Assembly (NCBI RefSeq): GCF_949774925.1
Contig: NZ_OX458932.1
Location: forward strand, 1,860,001 to 1,924,000
Direction: 5' to 3'
Length of the DNA stretch: 64,000 nucleotides
From: Candidatus Methylacidiphilum fumarolicum
GTDB lineage: Bacteria > Verrucomicrobiota > Verrucomicrobiia > Methylacidiphilales > Methylacidiphilaceae
Each line of letters starts with the position of its first letter. The stretch's first letter is position 1. Below the pieces are notes generated by a model that was given only the letters and a program-made list of their open reading frames with translations, did not search any database and was not told the origin of the DNA. Both the position numbers and the translations under genes were made by a program. Positions 29,473 through 39,851 of this stretch are shown one piece after another.

Positions 29473-30456
29473 GTGGGGAAAGTCCAAAAAAAGCTTATTT
29501 TCCCTTTTCTTTTCTCCCTTTTCCTCCTCCTTTTTTCGGCGCATGGAAAGATTTGTCTTCCCTTTTCCAGGGTCTTCGTGGGCATGGATACCTTTGAGAA
29601 GCTCATACGCTTTGCTAAAGAAGAAGGCTTATCGACCCTTCCTTTGGGTGAAAGAACCGTCCGAATAGGACTTTATTTGGTGGGTACTCCCTATCGGCAT
29701 TATACCCTTGAAATAGATGATCAGATCGAATCGCCTTCGGTAAATTTCCAGGCCATGGATTGCTGGACATTCTACGAAATCAGTTTAGCTTTCGCCCGAA
29801 TGCTCCATTATGACGAAAGCTTTTGGAGTCCCGAAACCCTCCTGAAGCTCATCGAAATTGAAAGGTACCGGAACGGAGAATGTACTGGGAGCTATCTCTC
29901 GAGAATCCATTTTTTAGAAGAACTCTTTGTAGATAATCAAAAAAGAGGCCTTTTGGTCGATAAGACAAGAAGCCTTGGTGGCGTCCCTATCCACAGGAAG
30001 GTAAGGGAAATGACAGTCGGCTGGCACCAATATCGCTACCTGCGCCACAACCCGACTCTTTTGCCCGCTATGGCAAAAATAGAAGAGCGGGTCTCAGCCC
30101 TTAAGGTCTATCATATCCCCAAAGCAGCAGTTCCATCAATCGAACCAAAAATCAAAAATGGAGATATCATTGCCATTACTACGCACGATCTTCATTCCTA
30201 TACTTCCCATGTCGGAATCGCCTACAGGGATTCTCAAGGCATTCTTCATTTCCTCCATGCTTCTTCCACACACCATCAGGTCTATATAGACAAACGACTT
30301 TCCGATTATTTAAATTCCATTGCGAGTGATGCCGGCATCATTGTCGTCGAACCCAAAGAGGTTCCTTTGAATCTGATCGAAACAAGCCAGTACCCTGCTG
30401 CGGCTTTAACTCCAGTTGCGTCGACCAAAAAATCGTTTTTCCCTCCGATTCAATAG
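29473..30456 (+). CDS. DUF1460 family protein (NlpC/P60-like amidase fold)
   Basis: Starts at a GTG and encodes 327 residues with an N-terminal signal peptide (LIFPFLFSLFLLLFSAHG). The DUF1460 core includes GTPYRHYTLEI, MDCWTFYEISLAFARM (the cysteine in MDCWTF is the likely nucleophile) and a late HSYTSHVGIAYRD that holds the probable histidine. DUF1460 proteins resemble N-acetylmuramoyl-L-alanine amidases. It lies 30 bases after the GH57 gene. Its 3' end overlaps the convergent next gene by 119 bases. Confidence 0.8.
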   Translation: MGKVQKKLIFPFLFSLFLLLFSAHGKICLPFSRVFVGMDTFEKLIRFAKEEGLSTLPLGERTVRIGLYLVGTPYRHYTLEIDDQIESPSVNFQAMDCWTFYEISLAFARMLHYDESFWSPETLLKLIEIERYRNGECTGSYLSRIHFLEELFVDNQKRGLLVDKTRSLGGVPIHRKVREMTVGWHQYRYLRHNPTLLPAMAKIEERVSALKVYHIPKAAVPSIEPKIKNGDIIAITTHDLHSYTSHVGIAYRDSQGILHFLHASSTHHQVYIDKRLSDYLNSIASDAGIIVVEPKEVPLNLIETSQYPAAALTPVASTKKSFFPPIQ

Positions 30457-31543
30457 GTTTTGCCCAGGGCTTTAGTTCTAGCCAGTCATACTCCGGTTTT
30501 TCTTCTGAATCAATTCTTTTGCCTATAGTCAAATCGTAGCGTTCATAGAAAGGAGCCCTGTTTTTTTCTGTCGAACCAAACACGACTCCTTGGCCTTCCT
30601 TTTCAAAATACCAGTCGATCAACTGTGGGTATTTGCCAAATACCCTTAAAAAAATGGCGCTGGCTTTGTAAAATTCAAGGTAAGACCAACCCCCTGGACT
30701 TTGAGCCTCGCGGATCCATCCTGCCGTCCCGTTCCGAGCAATCTTGAAATTTCGACATACCCCAGGATACCTTAGCTCGGTTCTTTTACCGCTTTTAAAG
30801 ATGAGGGTCACCACGGTAGTCTTTTTTGCAGGTTCTGTGTCATACACCTTGCCAACTATAGCAACAGGAAAGTCTTCTTTAGCCTCTGCATGATGAAACA
30901 CATAGGGCAGAAAATCGACATCTTCCCTAAGGAGCTGCTCCCAGGCAGTCCTCCCAAAGCTTGCTTCCAGTTTGTCTTCAGCCTTAATCCTTCTGCCTGT
31001 ATCCAGATCAAAGACTTCCACCAGTATTTGGCCATTGAAATCCCTTGACCGAAGCCCTACGGCCATGTCTCTTAAGCCTTCAATCCGGCAAAAAAGCCAA
31101 GCTTCTATGAACGGATAGGCGCTTTTAAGTGTTAATTGTCGTGGGTTCCCCTTTTTCTTTTCCTGAACTCTGAGCTGGTCGCAAACATAATCGATCCCCA
31201 CTCCGACTCCTTCGTGCCGGCCTTCTACCCATCCAATCCACTCGGGAGATTCGATTGGGAGAACTGAAAGTTTATCTAGCAGTGCCTTTTGTTCTTGATT
31301 CAGAGAGATTTTGCCATGGATCCACTGGGCTGAACAAGTTGGATAGTTGCAAGGCACAGGAATTAAATAAAGAATTAAATCTTTCTTGTTTTTATTCTCC
31401 GGAGCATTTCTATCGAAAAGAGAAAAAAAAAGAGGGAAAAAGAAGAAGAAACAAAATGAGTGTAGGAGCAGCCTTGAACTTGGAAAAGATAATACAAGCC
31501 ACGGTTTGTTTCTCGGAGGAGAATTCCTTTTTAAAATCTTCAC
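30338..31543 (-). CDS. Unrecognised membrane-anchored or secreted protein
   Basis: The 401-residue product has a strongly hydrophobic N-terminal segment (about residues 24-42) and otherwise a soluble, strand-rich body. I do not recognise the family. Notable segments are IPVPCNYPTCSAQWIHG with two cysteines and WIGWVEGRHEGVGVGIDY. Its 3' end overlaps the DUF1460 gene by 119 bases in opposite orientation, which is unusual for two real genes, but the open frame is long and the upstream region is free, so I retain it. Confidence 0.6.
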   Translation of the reverse strand: MKILKRNSPPRNKPWLVLSFPSSRLLLHSFCFFFFFPLFFSLFDRNAPENKNKKDLILYLIPVPCNYPTCSAQWIHGKISLNQEQKALLDKLSVLPIESPEWIGWVEGRHEGVGVGIDYVCDQLRVQEKKKGNPRQLTLKSAYPFIEAWLFCRIEGLRDMAVGLRSRDFNGQILVEVFDLDTGRRIKAEDKLEASFGRTAWEQLLREDVDFLPYVFHHAEAKEDFPVAIVGKVYDTEPAKKTTVVTLIFKSGKRTELRYPGVCRNFKIARNGTAGWIREAQSPGGWSYLEFYKASAIFLRVFGKYPQLIDWYFEKEGQGVVFGSTEKNRAPFYERYDLTIGKRIDSEEKPEYDWLELKPWAKPIESEGKTIFWSTQLELKPQQGTGLFRSDSKEPLWVRRQ

Positions 31544-31646: not shown

Positions 31647-32081
31647 TTAGCGACTAAGAAAATAAAGGAGAATTCTCTGATGCAATACGTCAAAGATTTT
31701 TTGGAAAGCTTCTTTTTGTTTGTCTATATCCCCTTCGACAGCTGCCGGATCTGGCAAATCCCAATGTTCAATGGTCGCCTTTTTAGGGAAAAGTGGACAG
31801 GCCTCTTTTGCAGCACTTGAACAAACCGTTACGACATAATCGATCGCAGGGGCATCGGCTTGCAAAAACTCAGTCAATGGTTTACTCCGTAGCCCATCGA
31901 TGGGAATTCCATGTGATCGGAGAGTTTCCAAAGCAAGGGGATGCACTAGTCCTTTTGGCCTGCTCCCCGCGCTATAGGCGCGGAAACGGCCGCCACTATA
32001 ATGGTTTAAAATGGCCTCCGCCATAATCGATCGGGCTGAATTGCCTGTGCACAAAAACAAAACATGCGATTGGAGCCTCAT
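31647..32081 (-). CDS. arsC: Arsenate reductase, thioredoxin-coupled (LMW phosphatase fold)
   Basis: A 144-residue LMW-PTP-fold arsenate reductase. The P-loop CTGNSARS gives nucleophile C11 and R17, and two further cysteines in VTVCSSAAKEACPLF fit the relay of thioredoxin-dependent ArsC. It reduces arsenate to arsenite. Its ATG overlaps the arsR stop (ATGA), so the two are co-translated. Confidence 0.92.
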   Translation of the reverse strand: MRLQSHVLFLCTGNSARSIMAEAILNHYSGGRFRAYSAGSRPKGLVHPLALETLRSHGIPIDGLRSKPLTEFLQADAPAIDYVVTVCSSAAKEACPLFPKKATIEHWDLPDPAAVEGDIDKQKEAFQKIFDVLHQRILLYFLSR

Positions 32082-32446
32082 CTGCAGGTCTGCCTTTCAG
32101 TGGAAAGAGAACTTTCCTCTTGTTCATTTGTTTTACAGAAAAATTGAATCAACGATTCCACATCTTTTCCGCAACAGTCTTCGAGCAAATAGCCAATTAA
32201 CTTAGCGATCTTTTCAAAATCAGCATAATAGACAATCTGTCTGCCTTTCTGTGTGGCCTCAATAAGTGTCGAATTTTTTAAATGATGCAAATGAAAGGAT
32301 AGGGTTGTCAAAGGCACTTGCAGCTTTTCGGCCAGCTCTCCAGGACAACTCCCCTTGGACCCTGCTTTTATAAGCAGCTTGAAGATCTCGATCCGAGTTT
32401 TATGCGCCAGCGCATTTAAAATCAAAAGAGCCGTCTTATTATCCAT
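32078..32446 (-). CDS. arsR: ArsR-family metalloregulator
   Basis: A 122-residue winged-helix repressor. The HTH core is LAEKLQVPLTTLSFHLHHLK and the wing is STLIEATQKGRQIVYYAD. A C-terminal pair LLEDCCGKD and a further cysteine near the end are plausible arsenite ligands of the type in which the sensing site is away from the HTH. It would repress the divergent arsRC and acr3 transcription units. Confidence 0.92.
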   Translation of the reverse strand: MDNKTALLILNALAHKTRIEIFKLLIKAGSKGSCPGELAEKLQVPLTTLSFHLHHLKNSTLIEATQKGRQIVYYADFEKIAKLIGYLLEDCCGKDVESLIQFFCKTNEQEESSLSTERQTCR

Positions 32447-32463
32447 ATCGTAGGGTTAAATCA

Positions 32464-32493
32464 ACAATAGTTTTATTCTATTGGAACTATTGT
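32464..32493. promoter_or_regulatory. Candidate ArsR operator in the arsR-acr3 divergent interval
   Basis: A perfect 9-bp inverted repeat, ACAATAGTT (32464-32472) and AACTATTGT (32485-32493), is separated by 12 bases. It sits 18-47 bases before the arsR start and about 115-140 bases before acr3. The position and symmetry fit an ArsR-family operator controlling both directions; the binding itself is an inference. Confidence 0.6.
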
Positions 32494-32605
32494 AATATTC
32501 AATTCTAAATGTTACTAAAAACGCCAGAAAAGCAAAAAACGCAGGATCACAAATTAAGAAGAAAAAATATTTCCATATTTTTAGAAAAGTGGCAAATTAT
32601 TTCCT

Positions 32606-33676
32606 ATGAAATCTGAAGAAATGGTGGAAATGACCTTAGAGCAAAAGGGAGGTATTGGGTTTTTTGAGAAGTATTTAACGCTATGGGTAGCCCTGTGTAT
32701 AGGCGCTGGGATCGGATTAGGGAAATTGTTCCCAGGCCTTTTTCAGTTCCTTGGAAGCATTGAACTTATGCATGTGAATTTAGTTGTCGGCTTTTTTGTC
32801 TGGCTGATGATTATCCCTATGCTAATGAAAATCGATTTTAGTGTTCTTCACAGGGTAAGAACCCATACCCGAGGCATGCTTGTAACCCTGCTTGTCAACT
32901 GGGCCATCAAACCCTTCTCCATGGCTTTTTTCGGCTGGCTTTTTTTGAAAAAAATCTTTTTCCAGCTTCTCCCTCCCGATCAACTCGATTCGTACATAGC
33001 AGGACTGATTTTATTGGCCGCAGCCCCCTGCACAGCAATGGTTTTTGTTTGGAGCCATCTTTGCCTCGGTGATCCTTACTTTACCCTCTGCCAGGTCGCT
33101 CTCAATGATACCATCATGGTGTTTGCTTTCGCTCCCATTGTTGGGTTGCTTCTTGGTGTTTCTTCCCTCCACGTGCCCTGGGGCACTTTACTGCTCTCGG
33201 TCATCTTTTATATCCTCATCCCCCTTCTCTTTAGTCAATGGCTCCGTGCAAGAATTCTTAAAGAGGGAGGGAAGCAAAAGCTCGATAGGGTACTCCAACT
33301 GCTCCATAACCCTACCCTCTTTGCCCTGCTGGCAACCCTTATCTTGCTATTTGGCTTTCAAGGTAAAGTCATTCTGAAAAACCCTTTTATCATTCTGCTC
33401 CTTGCTATTCCTATCTTGGTGCAGGTCTATTTCAACTCAGCCTTAGCGTATATGCTCAATCGAAAGTTCGGAGTGGCTCACTGTGCCGCTGGCCCTTCTG
33501 CTCTAATTGGCGCAAGTAATTTTTTTGAATTAGCCGTGGCCACCGCCATCAGTCTTTATGGACTAGACTCTGGAGCAGCGCTCGCAACTGTTGTCGGTGT
33601 ACTAATCGAAGTTCCCGTCATGCTTTCTGTTGTGGAAATCGTGAAAAAAACCCAAGGATGGTACACCAAAGGCTGA
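32606..33676 (+). CDS. acr3: Arsenite efflux transporter (ACR3 family)
   Basis: A 356-residue membrane protein with about ten hydrophobic segments. The ACR3 signature is the TM4 segment LLAAAPCTAMVFVWSHL with the conserved cysteine, plus the late SALIGASNFFELAVA. It exports arsenite as the antiporter of the arsenate-resistance route. It is transcribed away from arsRC across a 159-base interval. Confidence 0.93.
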   Translation: MKSEEMVEMTLEQKGGIGFFEKYLTLWVALCIGAGIGLGKLFPGLFQFLGSIELMHVNLVVGFFVWLMIIPMLMKIDFSVLHRVRTHTRGMLVTLLVNWAIKPFSMAFFGWLFLKKIFFQLLPPDQLDSYIAGLILLAAAPCTAMVFVWSHLCLGDPYFTLCQVALNDTIMVFAFAPIVGLLLGVSSLHVPWGTLLLSVIFYILIPLLFSQWLRARILKEGGKQKLDRVLQLLHNPTLFALLATLILLFGFQGKVILKNPFIILLLAIPILVQVYFNSALAYMLNRKFGVAHCAAGPSALIGASNFFELAVATAISLYGLDSGAALATVVGVLIEVPVMLSVVEIVKKTQGWYTKG

Positions 33677-33865: not shown

Positions 33866-33895
33866 CCCTATCTTGGGGGAAAAAAGATAGGAGGG
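33866..33895 (+). promoter_or_regulatory. Hairpin touching the ribosome binding site of the PKS-cluster operon
   Basis: CCTATCTT (33867-33874) pairs with AAGATAGG (33884-33891) across a nine-base loop, and the pairing can extend on the outer side past a small bulge. The right arm runs straight into GGAGGG (33890-33895), the ribosome binding site six bases before the ATG at 33901. Folding would partly bury that site. A smaller CTCCT/AGGAG stem lies just upstream near 33829-33845. Confidence 0.5.
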
Positions 33896-33900
33896 CCTTC

Positions 33901-34581
33901 ATGCAAAGAAAACTCGAAGAAAAGGAATACCTGGATGAGTTGGCTTATGATTCTTATCTGGCTAAAAAGGGAAGAGAAGGATTAAAGAAAATTAACTATA
34001 TAATGGGAAATTTTGTATGGTTTAAAAAAAGGCTTCGGCAGGTAGTCTCTACACAGGGGACAGTACATTTTATAGAAATAGGCGCTGGCGATGGGTCTAT
34101 GGGAAGGTTCCTTTATGCCGACCCATTGTTACAAAAAAATCTGTTGCTAACGGGAATAGATAGGGTTCCTAGGCCACAACACTGGCCTGTTCATTGGCCG
34201 TGGATTCAAACCGATCTTTTTGTTCTGATCGACTCTGGCACCTTTGCCTCAGGATGCTACCAAGGCATACTAGCCAATATGGTTCTGCATCATTTTTCGT
34301 CTGCCCAACTGGCTATAATTGGGAATTGGATCGTACAGCTTTCCCCTCTTTACCTTTTTTGTATTGAACCACTCCGCTCTCCTCTTTCTCTCTTCGAACT
34401 GTTCTTGCTCAGATTGGCCGGACTCAATCAAATAACCTTTCATGACGGCTGGCTAAGCATCAAAAGTGGGTTTATGGGATTGGAACTGCCAGAGCTTTTA
34501 AATCTTAGTTCCGAACAGTGGCAATATAAGATCGATGTAACCCTCTTGGGAGCTTACCGGTTAGAAGCCACAAAAAAATGA
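33901..34581 (+). CDS. SAM-dependent methyltransferase of the type III PKS cluster
   Basis: A 226-residue class I methyltransferase. The SAM-binding motif I reads VHFIEIGAGDGSMGRF (residues 57-72) and the motif IV-like segment QGILANMVLHHFS is near residue 122. The start is fixed by GGAGGG six bases upstream. Its stop overlaps the ATG of the FAD oxidoreductase by four bases, so it is translated with it. By context it methylates a phenolic or pyrone product; that is inference. Confidence 0.8.
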   Translation: MQRKLEEKEYLDELAYDSYLAKKGREGLKKINYIMGNFVWFKKRLRQVVSTQGTVHFIEIGAGDGSMGRFLYADPLLQKNLLLTGIDRVPRPQHWPVHWPWIQTDLFVLIDSGTFASGCYQGILANMVLHHFSSAQLAIIGNWIVQLSPLYLFCIEPLRSPLSLFELFLLRLAGLNQITFHDGWLSIKSGFMGLELPELLNLSSEQWQYKIDVTLLGAYRLEATKK

Positions 34582-35597
34582 AACCGATTACGATCATTGG
34601 CGGAGGACTAGCTGGCTTAGCTTTAGGCATAGGGCTGCGTCGCTACAAGATCCCAGTTGCTGTGTACGAGAGAAACGATTATCCGCTTAAGAAAGTCTGC
34701 GGGGAATTCCTTTCTGGACTGCCTCAAAAGGTAATTCAGCAATTAGGAATCAGGCCTATCCTCGATCGCTTTCCGCTCGCTTCATCGGCCAGTCTATCGA
34801 TAGGAGATAGTCAACCAACCCTTCTTCACTTCACTTTGCCTGTGTATTTAACTGCTCGAGAACGTTTAGATACCGAGTTTGCACAACTTTTCGTGGATCA
34901 CGGGGGCAGCCTGTATACAAAAACCCAGTGCGATCCTACCCTCTGTCAAGAAGCTGTTGTCTTGGCTACCGGTAAAAAGCGGATTGGTGGACCATGGATC
35001 GGGCTTAAAGTGCATCTCCAAGGGATTGAATTAAAACATGACCTGGAAATGTATGCAGCTAAAGACGGTTACGTTGGACTTTGCAAGATTGATCATAGCA
35101 CCGTTAACCTTTGTGGGCTATTCAAAAAGAAGAAATTTTCGGTTACGTCTAAAAAAGAACTCCTTGCGTTTTTTCTTAAAACATCGCAGCTTGCAAAGCC
35201 TTACCATTACTTAGAAGAAGCTAACTTTATGGAAAAGAGTTTTGTAGCCATTCCTTCTTTTTCTCTCGGATTCCAACACACAAAGTCTGAACCTATGGTA
35301 GCCCTTGGGGATGCCTTTGGCGTGCTTCCACCTTTCCTAGGTAACGGTATGGCCATGGCTATGGAATCGGCTGCTTTGGCCCTCGATGATCTCATAGCTT
35401 ACGCCCAAGGCTCCAAAAGTTGGACAGAAACTCTAAGGCAAATCCACCATAAACTGAAAAAGACCTTTGCCCTTCGAATAACCCTTGGCCTTTGCTTGCA
35501 TCCCCTCCTTTTTAAAAAATCTCCTCTCCAAACGGTCTTGATCAAAAAGCCTATCGTTTCCTTTCTTTATACCCTGACAAGGTCCATGGAGTCTTAG
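34578..35597 (+). CDS. FAD-dependent oxidoreductase of the type III PKS cluster
   Basis: A 339-residue flavoprotein of the geranylgeranyl-reductase/aromatic hydroxylase type. The FAD-binding GGGLAGLALGIGLR starts at residue 8, KVCGEFLSG follows at about residue 41, and the second FAD motif is ALGDAFGVLPPFLGNGMAMAM near residue 235. It could hydroxylate or otherwise oxidise the polyketide product. Coupled upstream to the methyltransferase (4-base overlap) and 75 bases ahead of the PKS. Confidence 0.82.
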   Translation: MKPITIIGGGLAGLALGIGLRRYKIPVAVYERNDYPLKKVCGEFLSGLPQKVIQQLGIRPILDRFPLASSASLSIGDSQPTLLHFTLPVYLTARERLDTEFAQLFVDHGGSLYTKTQCDPTLCQEAVVLATGKKRIGGPWIGLKVHLQGIELKHDLEMYAAKDGYVGLCKIDHSTVNLCGLFKKKKFSVTSKKELLAFFLKTSQLAKPYHYLEEANFMEKSFVAIPSFSLGFQHTKSEPMVALGDAFGVLPPFLGNGMAMAMESAALALDDLIAYAQGSKSWTETLRQIHHKLKKTFALRITLGLCLHPLLFKKSPLQTVLIKKPIVSFLYTLTRSMES

Positions 35598-35672
35598 TCA
35601 AACTACCAACTACTAATACAGGGAAAATCCAAGAATTCGTTTAGTCTCCTGTCCGATTCTAAACTATATTTT

Positions 35673-36728
35673 ATGCATAAAGAGACTATGATACTTCAAT
35701 CCATCTGCTCCATGGTTCCAGAGCATGGTTATACGCAATCTGAATGCTGGGAAATCTTTAGCCAGTCTATAGCAGCTAAAACCCTAAAAGAGGCTTCTTT
35801 GGATTTAGTAAAAAGAATTCTACTTGGAGATAGCTGGATTGAACGCCGATATTTTGCTGTTGACCCTATCGAGTCAGTCTTTGAGATGTCAGCAGAAGCT
35901 TTAAACAAGGCCTTTGAAAAATTGGCTCCGGTTCTGGCTGCTAAATCCCTCAAAGCTGTGCTGGATCAATCTGGACTCAAGGCCACAGAACTGGACGCCC
36001 TTTTTGTTTGTACGTGCACGGGTTATCTTTGTCCAGGTCTTTCCAGTCACATTGCTGAAAAAGTAGGGATGCGATCCGATAGTTTCTTGATCGATATCGT
36101 AGGCCATGGCTGCGGAGCAGCACTACCTATGCTGTATTCGGTCAAAGGTTTTCTAAAAGAAAACCCAGATTGCTATGCTGCTGCCATTGCCATAGAACTT
36201 TCCTCTACCGCTTTCTATGTGGACGATGATCCAGGATGTCTGGTTAGCCTTTGTATTTTTGCCGATGGGGTCAATACCACCCTATGGCACCATACGAAAA
36301 AGGGTTTAGGATGGCATTGCAAAGATTTTTTATCGTTGCATATTCCAAAAAATCGAGAAAAGCTGAGATTCGAAAACGCTTTTGGAAAACTCCGCAATAA
36401 ACTTCATCGAACAGTGCCTGTGCTTGCTACTGAAGCAGTATGGGAACTTTATAAAAGATTTGAAAAGCATTCTCAAACTGATTTGAAAAGGCTCATTGCT
36501 CATCCGGGAGGAAAAGAGGTATTGATCGAATTAAGAAAAGCCTTGCCTTGTGGAAAATTCGAAGAGAGTGAGGCAGTTCTTAGAGCTTTTGGCAATATGA
36601 GTAGTCCTTCGGTTATGTTCGCCTTTCAAAAAGGAATTGAATCCCAGCCAATAGAAAAGGAATTTTGGTTGTTTAGTTTTGGCGCTGGCTTTTCATGCCA
36701 TGGTTGCCGTATCGTCATGAGGCACTGA
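35673..36728 (+). CDS. Type III polyketide synthase (chalcone synthase-like)
   Basis: A 351-residue homodimeric ketosynthase. The Cys-His-Asn triad is C147 (IVGHGCGAALPM), H277 (IAHPGGKEVL) and N308 (FGNMSSPSV). Such enzymes extend an acyl-CoA or acyl thioester with malonyl-CoA into alkylpyrones, alkylresorcinols or similar products. The downstream cluster is absent: the next gene lies 711 bases away. Together with the upstream methyltransferase and FAD oxidoreductase it forms a three-gene biosynthetic unit; the product is unknown. Confidence 0.9.
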   Translation: MHKETMILQSICSMVPEHGYTQSECWEIFSQSIAAKTLKEASLDLVKRILLGDSWIERRYFAVDPIESVFEMSAEALNKAFEKLAPVLAAKSLKAVLDQSGLKATELDALFVCTCTGYLCPGLSSHIAEKVGMRSDSFLIDIVGHGCGAALPMLYSVKGFLKENPDCYAAAIAIELSSTAFYVDDDPGCLVSLCIFADGVNTTLWHHTKKGLGWHCKDFLSLHIPKNREKLRFENAFGKLRNKLHRTVPVLATEAVWELYKRFEKHSQTDLKRLIAHPGGKEVLIELRKALPCGKFEESEAVLRAFGNMSSPSVMFAFQKGIESQPIEKEFWLFSFGAGFSCHGCRIVMRH

Positions 36729-37439: not shown

Positions 37440-39851
37440 ATGCATAGACTTCAGAAAGAAATTATAAAAGGTTTACTACCCGTTCTCCGTGTTATCTTCT
37501 TTTTGGCAGCGTCGCTTCTTCAGGCAGCCGATTATGATCCAAACCCGCCTTTTGGATTGGAGCAACTTAAGCCTGTGGAAGTCAAAGATCCCCTCACTCA
37601 AAAAATCATCAAAGGCTATCAACCTAAAAATCCCTACAACATTTTCATCAACTATGAGCTTGGAATGCATTGTGTTGGTTTTGATATTTCCTACTGCTGT
37701 GTCATTCCCCCTTATAACTCGATTCAGGCTCAAGCCGTAGCCTCAGGGCTCAATGGCTCTACTCCGAAACTGCTAACCCCAGAAGATAAAGTCAAGCTCT
37801 ATTACTATCTCAAAGACAACAGCTATTCGGAAGGCAACAAAATGAGGTACTGGTCCGTTTTAAAAGATGTCAATGGCAACGGCAGCCTTGCTGACCCAGG
37901 AGACAATATGGCTAATTATGTCTGGGAACACCTTTTTATCTATAAAGATTTAGAAGGCACCCTACCCAAAGACTGGTCGATTAAAAAGCGGATCCGTATA
38001 GGAAAGGACATCATGGTGCCAATCGATGCAGGTCCTTCCGGGAAGCCCCTTGCGGGAGGATATCTTGAGTATGCCCCTGATACCGGTGGAAATATCGTTT
38101 TTACCGATTCGATGATCCCAGAAGTGAAAAATATTGCCATTAAACTGACTGCTTCGAATATTTGGGATGCTCTTGGCTTGCCGCTGACCGCTTTTAATGA
38201 CTCGGTAAGGAAAGGAACTATTCGAACGATCACGGATAAAGATTTTCAACCTTATCAATATTCTACCGTGCAATTGCATGATGATACCGGTAAGCCAATA
38301 ATAATCGAAGGGAAAAAAGTGGAATTTTTTGGGACAAATCCTGTCGATATCCCCAACTGTGTCATGTGCCATTCTGGAGAAGGCAAGGCAGCAAAGCTTT
38401 CTAGACAAGCCGGCTTTGTCCTATTTGAAAAAGAATACGAGTACTGGAAAAAAAATTATCCCGATGAATCCGATTACATGGCAAGACTGTCAGCCTCTTC
38501 TATAAATCTGCTCGAACTCCACGATAAGATGTTTAAAACCAATTTCTTAAAAGACTATAACCCGAATGCCTCCTCGAACCGGCTCGGATCGGTTGGATCC
38601 GTAAACTGTGCTGACTGTCATGGTGATAACGTTTCTGGAAATCTTCAGGAACCAAGGCCCGGAACTACCGGATATAAAGCTGTCAAAGCAAGACCTCTAA
38701 CCGAATCCATTCATGCAGTACATGCTAACTTTCTGGCTGATATGAACGATAAAGCAGGTAGAACCGTTAGCTGTCAGGCCTGCCATCCTACTCACTGGAC
38801 TAATCCAAACCTGAATAATTTTGATACGAATCCTTATCAGATCATCGATTCTAACGGGAACAACAAATACGCGAATGCTGACCAAAGGACTGCTGGAGGA
38901 GGTTGCTATTTAAGAAGGGATGCCCATACTAACCCTGCTGTCAAACCACCGTTCTTCTTGAATTCTGTTGGAAAGTGGTATTTGGAAAACGTCAGTACTA
39001 GAGATGAAAACGATCAGCCGATCTCAGAGCTCAGAGGCCTTACTTGTACGAATTGTCATAACCAACTTTCTCATGAACTCTATAAGTATGACGATCTGGA
39101 TAATGGAGTCAGCCAGGAAGGCAAAACATTAAGGAATAAAAGTATCGATGAAATCATAAAAGTTCTAGCTGATGGAGATACTAGGCGGTTTGCTGATATG
39201 GCTGATCCTAGAATAAAAGACGGAAATAATCCACTTTACGAGTTTTTCCATAATCATCAAGGAGCCACTCTAGTAAAGGCTACAAAGGACAGCAAAGGCA
39301 ACTTAAAGTTGTTGGCCTGGAACGCCAAAGAAGGCGTGCCTGTACCTTATGAAAAGGCATCCGGGGGGAGCGATTGGTGGCTTGCGCCCGCTGAACCGAA
39401 ATGTGCAAGCTGCCATGCCGCTCCCTTCGTAGAAAGCATGGGAGGAAAATATTTTCCTGTCGATCAGCCTCGTAAATACTCGCTTTACCGGTTTTCGAAG
39501 GCTCACGGTAAAATTGCTTGTCAGTCCTGTCACGAGTCGATCCATGGGCTTTATCCAGTCAGAGCCGAAGGCGAAGAAAACACCGTGGATCTTACCACGC
39601 ATAAGCAAGCCCTCCAGTATTCACCCGATGGTCGGTATGCAGGGCCTGTCAGCTGTTCTGCTTGTCACACAGTCAATGCAAAAGGAGTGCCCGTTCAGCT
39701 TGTAGGCACCGAGTATGAAAATGATTACTGGGCTTCCGTTGTGCTCCTGCACTTCATGCGCGAAGGAGACGAAAAGTTACCAATCAAAGAGCTCATTCAG
39801 AAATATCCCTATCAAAAATCAAGGCAAATAGTCATTGAAAGCTGGAAATAG
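37440..39851 (+). CDS. Seven-heme c-type cytochrome
   Basis: An 803-residue protein with a signal peptide (LPVLRVIFFLAASLLQAAD) and seven CxxCH heme sites, at residues about 307 (CVMCH), 390 (CADCH), 445 (CQACH), 536 (CTNCH), 655 (CASCH), 694 (CQSCH) and 739 (CSACH). The first 300 residues are heme-free, with a YELGMHCVGFDISYCC segment. A CYLRRDAH sequence near residue 490 might be a lost eighth site. It should be periplasmic and carry out multi-electron transfer; the substrate is unknown. An Slp-like gene follows. Confidence 0.9.
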   Translation: MHRLQKEIIKGLLPVLRVIFFLAASLLQAADYDPNPPFGLEQLKPVEVKDPLTQKIIKGYQPKNPYNIFINYELGMHCVGFDISYCCVIPPYNSIQAQAVASGLNGSTPKLLTPEDKVKLYYYLKDNSYSEGNKMRYWSVLKDVNGNGSLADPGDNMANYVWEHLFIYKDLEGTLPKDWSIKKRIRIGKDIMVPIDAGPSGKPLAGGYLEYAPDTGGNIVFTDSMIPEVKNIAIKLTASNIWDALGLPLTAFNDSVRKGTIRTITDKDFQPYQYSTVQLHDDTGKPIIIEGKKVEFFGTNPVDIPNCVMCHSGEGKAAKLSRQAGFVLFEKEYEYWKKNYPDESDYMARLSASSINLLELHDKMFKTNFLKDYNPNASSNRLGSVGSVNCADCHGDNVSGNLQEPRPGTTGYKAVKARPLTESIHAVHANFLADMNDKAGRTVSCQACHPTHWTNPNLNNFDTNPYQIIDSNGNNKYANADQRTAGGGCYLRRDAHTNPAVKPPFFLNSVGKWYLENVSTRDENDQPISELRGLTCTNCHNQLSHELYKYDDLDNGVSQEGKTLRNKSIDEIIKVLADGDTRRFADMADPRIKDGNNPLYEFFHNHQGATLVKATKDSKGNLKLLAWNAKEGVPVPYEKASGGSDWWLAPAEPKCASCHAAPFVESMGGKYFPVDQPRKYSLYRFSKAHGKIACQSCHESIHGLYPVRAEGEENTVDLTTHKQALQYSPDGRYAGPVSCSACHTVNAKGVPVQLVGTEYENDYWASVVLLHFMREGDEKLPIKELIQKYPYQKSRQIVIESWK

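Follow-up and report, generated by a model that had tools for sequence, protein, structure and literature searches.

Results

Three co-directional genes on the plus strand of the window, the 64,000-nucleotide stretch of Candidatus Methylacidiphilum fumarolicum DNA analysed here, encode, as read from the open reading frames and the sequence, a methyltransferase, an FAD oxidoreductase and a type III polyketide synthase (PKS), in that order. The first (33901-34581, 226 aa) is assigned to a HidA-like class I SAM-dependent methyltransferase from its predicted fold and its conserved PKS neighbour; the second (34578-35597, 339 aa) to a HidB-like FAD-dependent oxidoreductase, a putative phenol hydroxylase, from weak family matches and its predicted fold; and the third (35673-36728, 351 aa) to a HidC-like type III PKS from Pfam and PDB matches, catalytic residues and phylogeny. 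The four-base overlap of the first two genes upstream of the PKS gene, described in the initial annotation, was confirmed: the sequence ATGA at 34578-34581 is common to the end of the methyltransferase gene and the start of the FAD gene, which thus begins inside the stop of its predecessor, and a gap of 75 nt separates the FAD gene from the PKS gene. A GGAGGG Shine-Dalgarno-like site (33890-33895, plus strand) lies 5 nt 5' of the methyltransferase ATG, and the same strand carries an 8-bp perfect hairpin at 33867-33891. A scan for sigma-70-like promoters found none.

Both the Cys-His-Asn catalytic triad and the family domains of type III PKSs are present in the window protein, which scores over the Pfam cut-offs for PF08392 (47.3 bits, cut-off 27) and PF02797 (28.5 bits, cut-off 27). 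The triad had been reported as intact, and residues 147, 277 and 308 are indeed C, H and N, invariant across an alignment of 11 sequences. The protein also matches, distantly, solved type III PKSs in the PDB. Its nearest NCBIfam model is NF042429, that of the 3,5-dihydroxyphenylacetyl-CoA synthase DpgA; this identity was rejected because the score is far below the cut-off of the model (105.5 vs 425 bits), and dpgB, dpgC and peptide synthetase genes do not adjoin the window operon. In the PKS tree, which was obtained by a quick search, has long outgroup branches and can be trusted for its broad split only, the window gene groups with those of its genus and family inside a clade of genes from methyltransferase-FAD-PKS loci (support 99), apart from DpgA and BcsA, and the two gene orders found in Verrucomicrobiota, methyltransferase-FAD-PKS and PKS-methyltransferase-FAD, form separate clades.

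The methyltransferase gave no Pfam match and a weak NCBIfam match (PRK06202). Its predicted fold is that of a class I methyltransferase (pLDDT 93.5), and the solved folds closest to the model are those of small-molecule O- and C-methyltransferases from plants and bacteria. The FAD protein has weak matches to FAD_binding_3 and to the geranylgeranyl-reductase family, and its predicted fold (pLDDT 90.1) is nearest to group A flavin monooxygenases, which are aromatic hydroxylases, and to phenol and pyrrole halogenases. The structure predictions were built without one row that came from a plasmid record.

The gene trio is conserved beyond chance, as judged from its occurrence in relatives. It is found in all five Methylacidiphilum species examined, the closest named relative of the window locus being Methylacidiphilum sp. 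Yel, the only organism in which a contig search with a single protein returned matches. The PKS is also present in one genome of a sister genus. A further genus of the same family lacks it in all seven genomes examined, although one of them (G017) carries a FAD gene copy at the end of a contig. Across the phylum, a PKS relative occurs in 70 of 388 Verrucomicrobiota genomes (E <= 1e-40); among 20 sampled Verrucomicrobiota loci, 12 have the order methyltransferase-FAD-PKS and one the order PKS-methyltransferase-FAD, an arrangement also seen in a separate group of the taxonomic order. At the locus of G026, a close relative of the window species (L033, 1-6325), each of the homologues of the open reading frame at 30338-31543, of the arsenite transporter ACR3 and of the PKS is broken across reading frames, a pattern more suggestive of indel errors in the assembly than of gene decay.

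Upstream of the operon, at 31647-33676, lies an ordinary set of arsenic genes, namely a divergent arsR-arsC-like pair and an ACR3 arsenite efflux transporter (365 bits to TIGR00832). These genes were considered as part of the PKS system and rejected because ACR3, ArsR and ArsC, which adjoin the operon in the window species, in Yel and in G026, do not do so in two other members of the genus, G024 and G025. Downstream, 37440-39851 encodes a multiheme c-type cytochrome of 803 aa that has several CxxCH motifs and is conserved beside the operon in G026.

Discussion

A hidABC-type operon is recognized by adjoining genes for a methyltransferase, an FAD oxidoreductase and a type III PKS in the order A-B-C (or C-A-B), and the window shows the first of these arrangements. 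On gene content and order, we consider it very probable that the three genes constitute such an operon, dedicated to a long-chain alkylresorcinol-derived lipid. hidABC is the operon of the hierridin alkylresorcinols in picocyanobacteria (PMC8086630, PMC10896814); as far as the accounts of Costa et al. 2019 given in those two papers go, that of Cyanobium sp. LEGE 06113 shares both the three genes and their order with the window operon and likewise contains no starter-unit or transport gene, while the host phylum differs. A methyltransferase-oxidoreductase-PKS operon has also been described in 58 planctomycetes (PMC10896814), whose mtr-fdo-t3pks genes, as in Gimesia maris and Rhodopirellula baltica, are by description the same and in the same order, in hosts that belong to the same PVC superphylum as the window species. 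Furthermore, the two orders reported for cyanobacterial hid-like clusters, ABC and CAB (PMC8086630), are those that occur in Verrucomicrobiota. The initial annotation had seen in the window a minimal unit devoid of starter-unit and transport genes. That it consists of three genes holds, but as a minimal unit it is not exceptional: its genes correspond, one by one and in order, to those of hidABC and of the planctomycetal operon, units of this type are widespread in Verrucomicrobiota, and since hid-type clusters have no starter-unit gene, such absence is the norm for the kind.

Other arrangements of the same functions were observed on plasmids. In Caballeronia sp. SBC2, plasmid pSBC2-3 (L072, 5010-9717) encodes the same three enzymes, with a PKS that is 36-37% identical; unlike the window operon, it has the order PKS-methyltransferase-FAD followed by extra acyl carrier protein and ketosynthase genes, and this hid-like operon may have its own ACP-bound starter supply. 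Plasmid 5 of Psychrobacter urativorans (L097, 3489-6312) shows a third arrangement, in which the type III PKS gene is opposed by the FAD oxidoreductase and methyltransferase genes on the opposite strand.

The earlier suggestion that a methanotroph makes a small aromatic lipid is supported by the gene content, that is, by the presence of a type III PKS unit. Whether a resorcinol or a pyrone is formed is not readable from the sequence of a type III PKS; by analogy with characterised relatives, an alkylresorcinol lipid that is both methylated and hydroxylated is the most likely product. In the pathway we propose, the PKS would load a long-chain fatty acyl thioester, drawn from ordinary fatty-acid metabolism, on Cys147 and carry out some three extensions with malonyl-CoA, after which closure of the tetraketide would yield a 5-alkylresorcinol; the FAD enzyme would then hydroxylate the ring, and the methyltransferase would methylate the product at least once, on O or C. 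Planctomycetal PKSs expressed in C. glutamicum gave 5-pentadecyl- and 5-heptadecylresorcinols (C15/C17) (PMC10896814). As to the tailoring steps, the methyltransferase of G. maris probably methylates a ring carbon, whereas HidA methylates oxygen, and even the planctomycete work did not settle what the FAD enzyme does (PMC10896814).

Two other products, both of which we regard as improbable, were weighed against this one. The PKS might close its chain as a lactone, as Pks11 and PKS18 do, to give an alkylpyrone that the other two enzymes would decorate, and these two enzymes of alpha-pyrone synthesis are in fact among its best sequence matches in solved structures; the matches are, however, distant, the best of all PDB chains reaching 76 bits, and the characterised methyltransferase-oxidoreductase-PKS operons of Planctomycetota lead to alkylresorcinols (PMC10896814), so that we think a pyrone unlikely. 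Still less probable is a halogenated phenolic lipid, for which the FAD enzyme would have to be a halogenase and for which hierridin C, whose chlorination is unexplained, offers a parallel. The closest solved folds and profile matches of the enzyme are PltA, ChlB4, Bmp2 and CmlS, but aromatic hydroxylases score nearly as high, and the WxWxIP halogenase motif is absent from the consensus of the FAD family, the corresponding stretch being GYVGLxxIExG.

The leader had been proposed to control translation through a hairpin abutting the ribosome binding site. The 8-bp perfect stem is present, with a left arm CCTATCTT (33867-33874), a 9-nt loop and a right arm AAGATAGG (33884-33891), but the right arm does more than abut GGAGGG, as it ends on the first GG of that site. 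A translational switch governing the operon, such as an RNA thermometer or a protein-binding site, would fit the predicted RNA in one respect, namely that the stretch from -15 to -6 ranks in the bottom 3% of 310 genes from the same genome for predicted openness. Otherwise, the hairpin stands out only mildly: over 91 nt, folding is not better than in dinucleotide shuffles (z = -0.82), and a perfect stem of at least 8 bp occurs in the 60 nt upstream of 14 of 310 genes (4.5%) in sampled parts of this genome. Its conservation had been set beforehand as the test that could refute control by the hairpin, and across the five Methylacidiphilum species compared, which are few sequences, it varies without compensatory changes. 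In the two closest species, Yel and G026, the core CTATCTT of the left arm is kept and the right arm AAGATAGG has become AAGAGAGG; one pair is therefore lost, and the predicted openness of the site rises from 0.19 in the window species to 0.62 and 0.34, respectively. The leaders of G024 and G025 bear no recognisable likeness to that of the window species, and the pair counts are no better than those of shuffles, 228 out of 500 of which reach the observed value. An Rfam search of the leader gave no family at the gathering cut-off; a single match below threshold, on the opposite strand, was discarded as chance. These data argue against translational control by the hairpin, a switch being in our opinion very unlikely, and we judge the leader hairpin to be a species-specific sequence and not a conserved regulator.

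Altogether, the operon is real and conserved, and it is of an already known kind in a new host lineage, a verrucomicrobial methanotroph; a literature search found no account of a type III PKS in Methylacidiphilum. No new regulatory mechanism follows from it. What it does is to add methanotrophic and many other Verrucomicrobiota to the hosts of a phenolic-lipid operon known from Cyanobacteria and Planctomycetota, and to indicate which class of lipids might be sought in Methylacidiphilum extracts. More tentatively, it is possible that the acid- and heat-loving methanotrophs among the Verrucomicrobiota produce alkylresorcinol (quinol-type) lipids, methylated and hydroxylated, for use in their membranes or redox chemistry, and that the operon represents a widespread, undescribed trait of the phylum.
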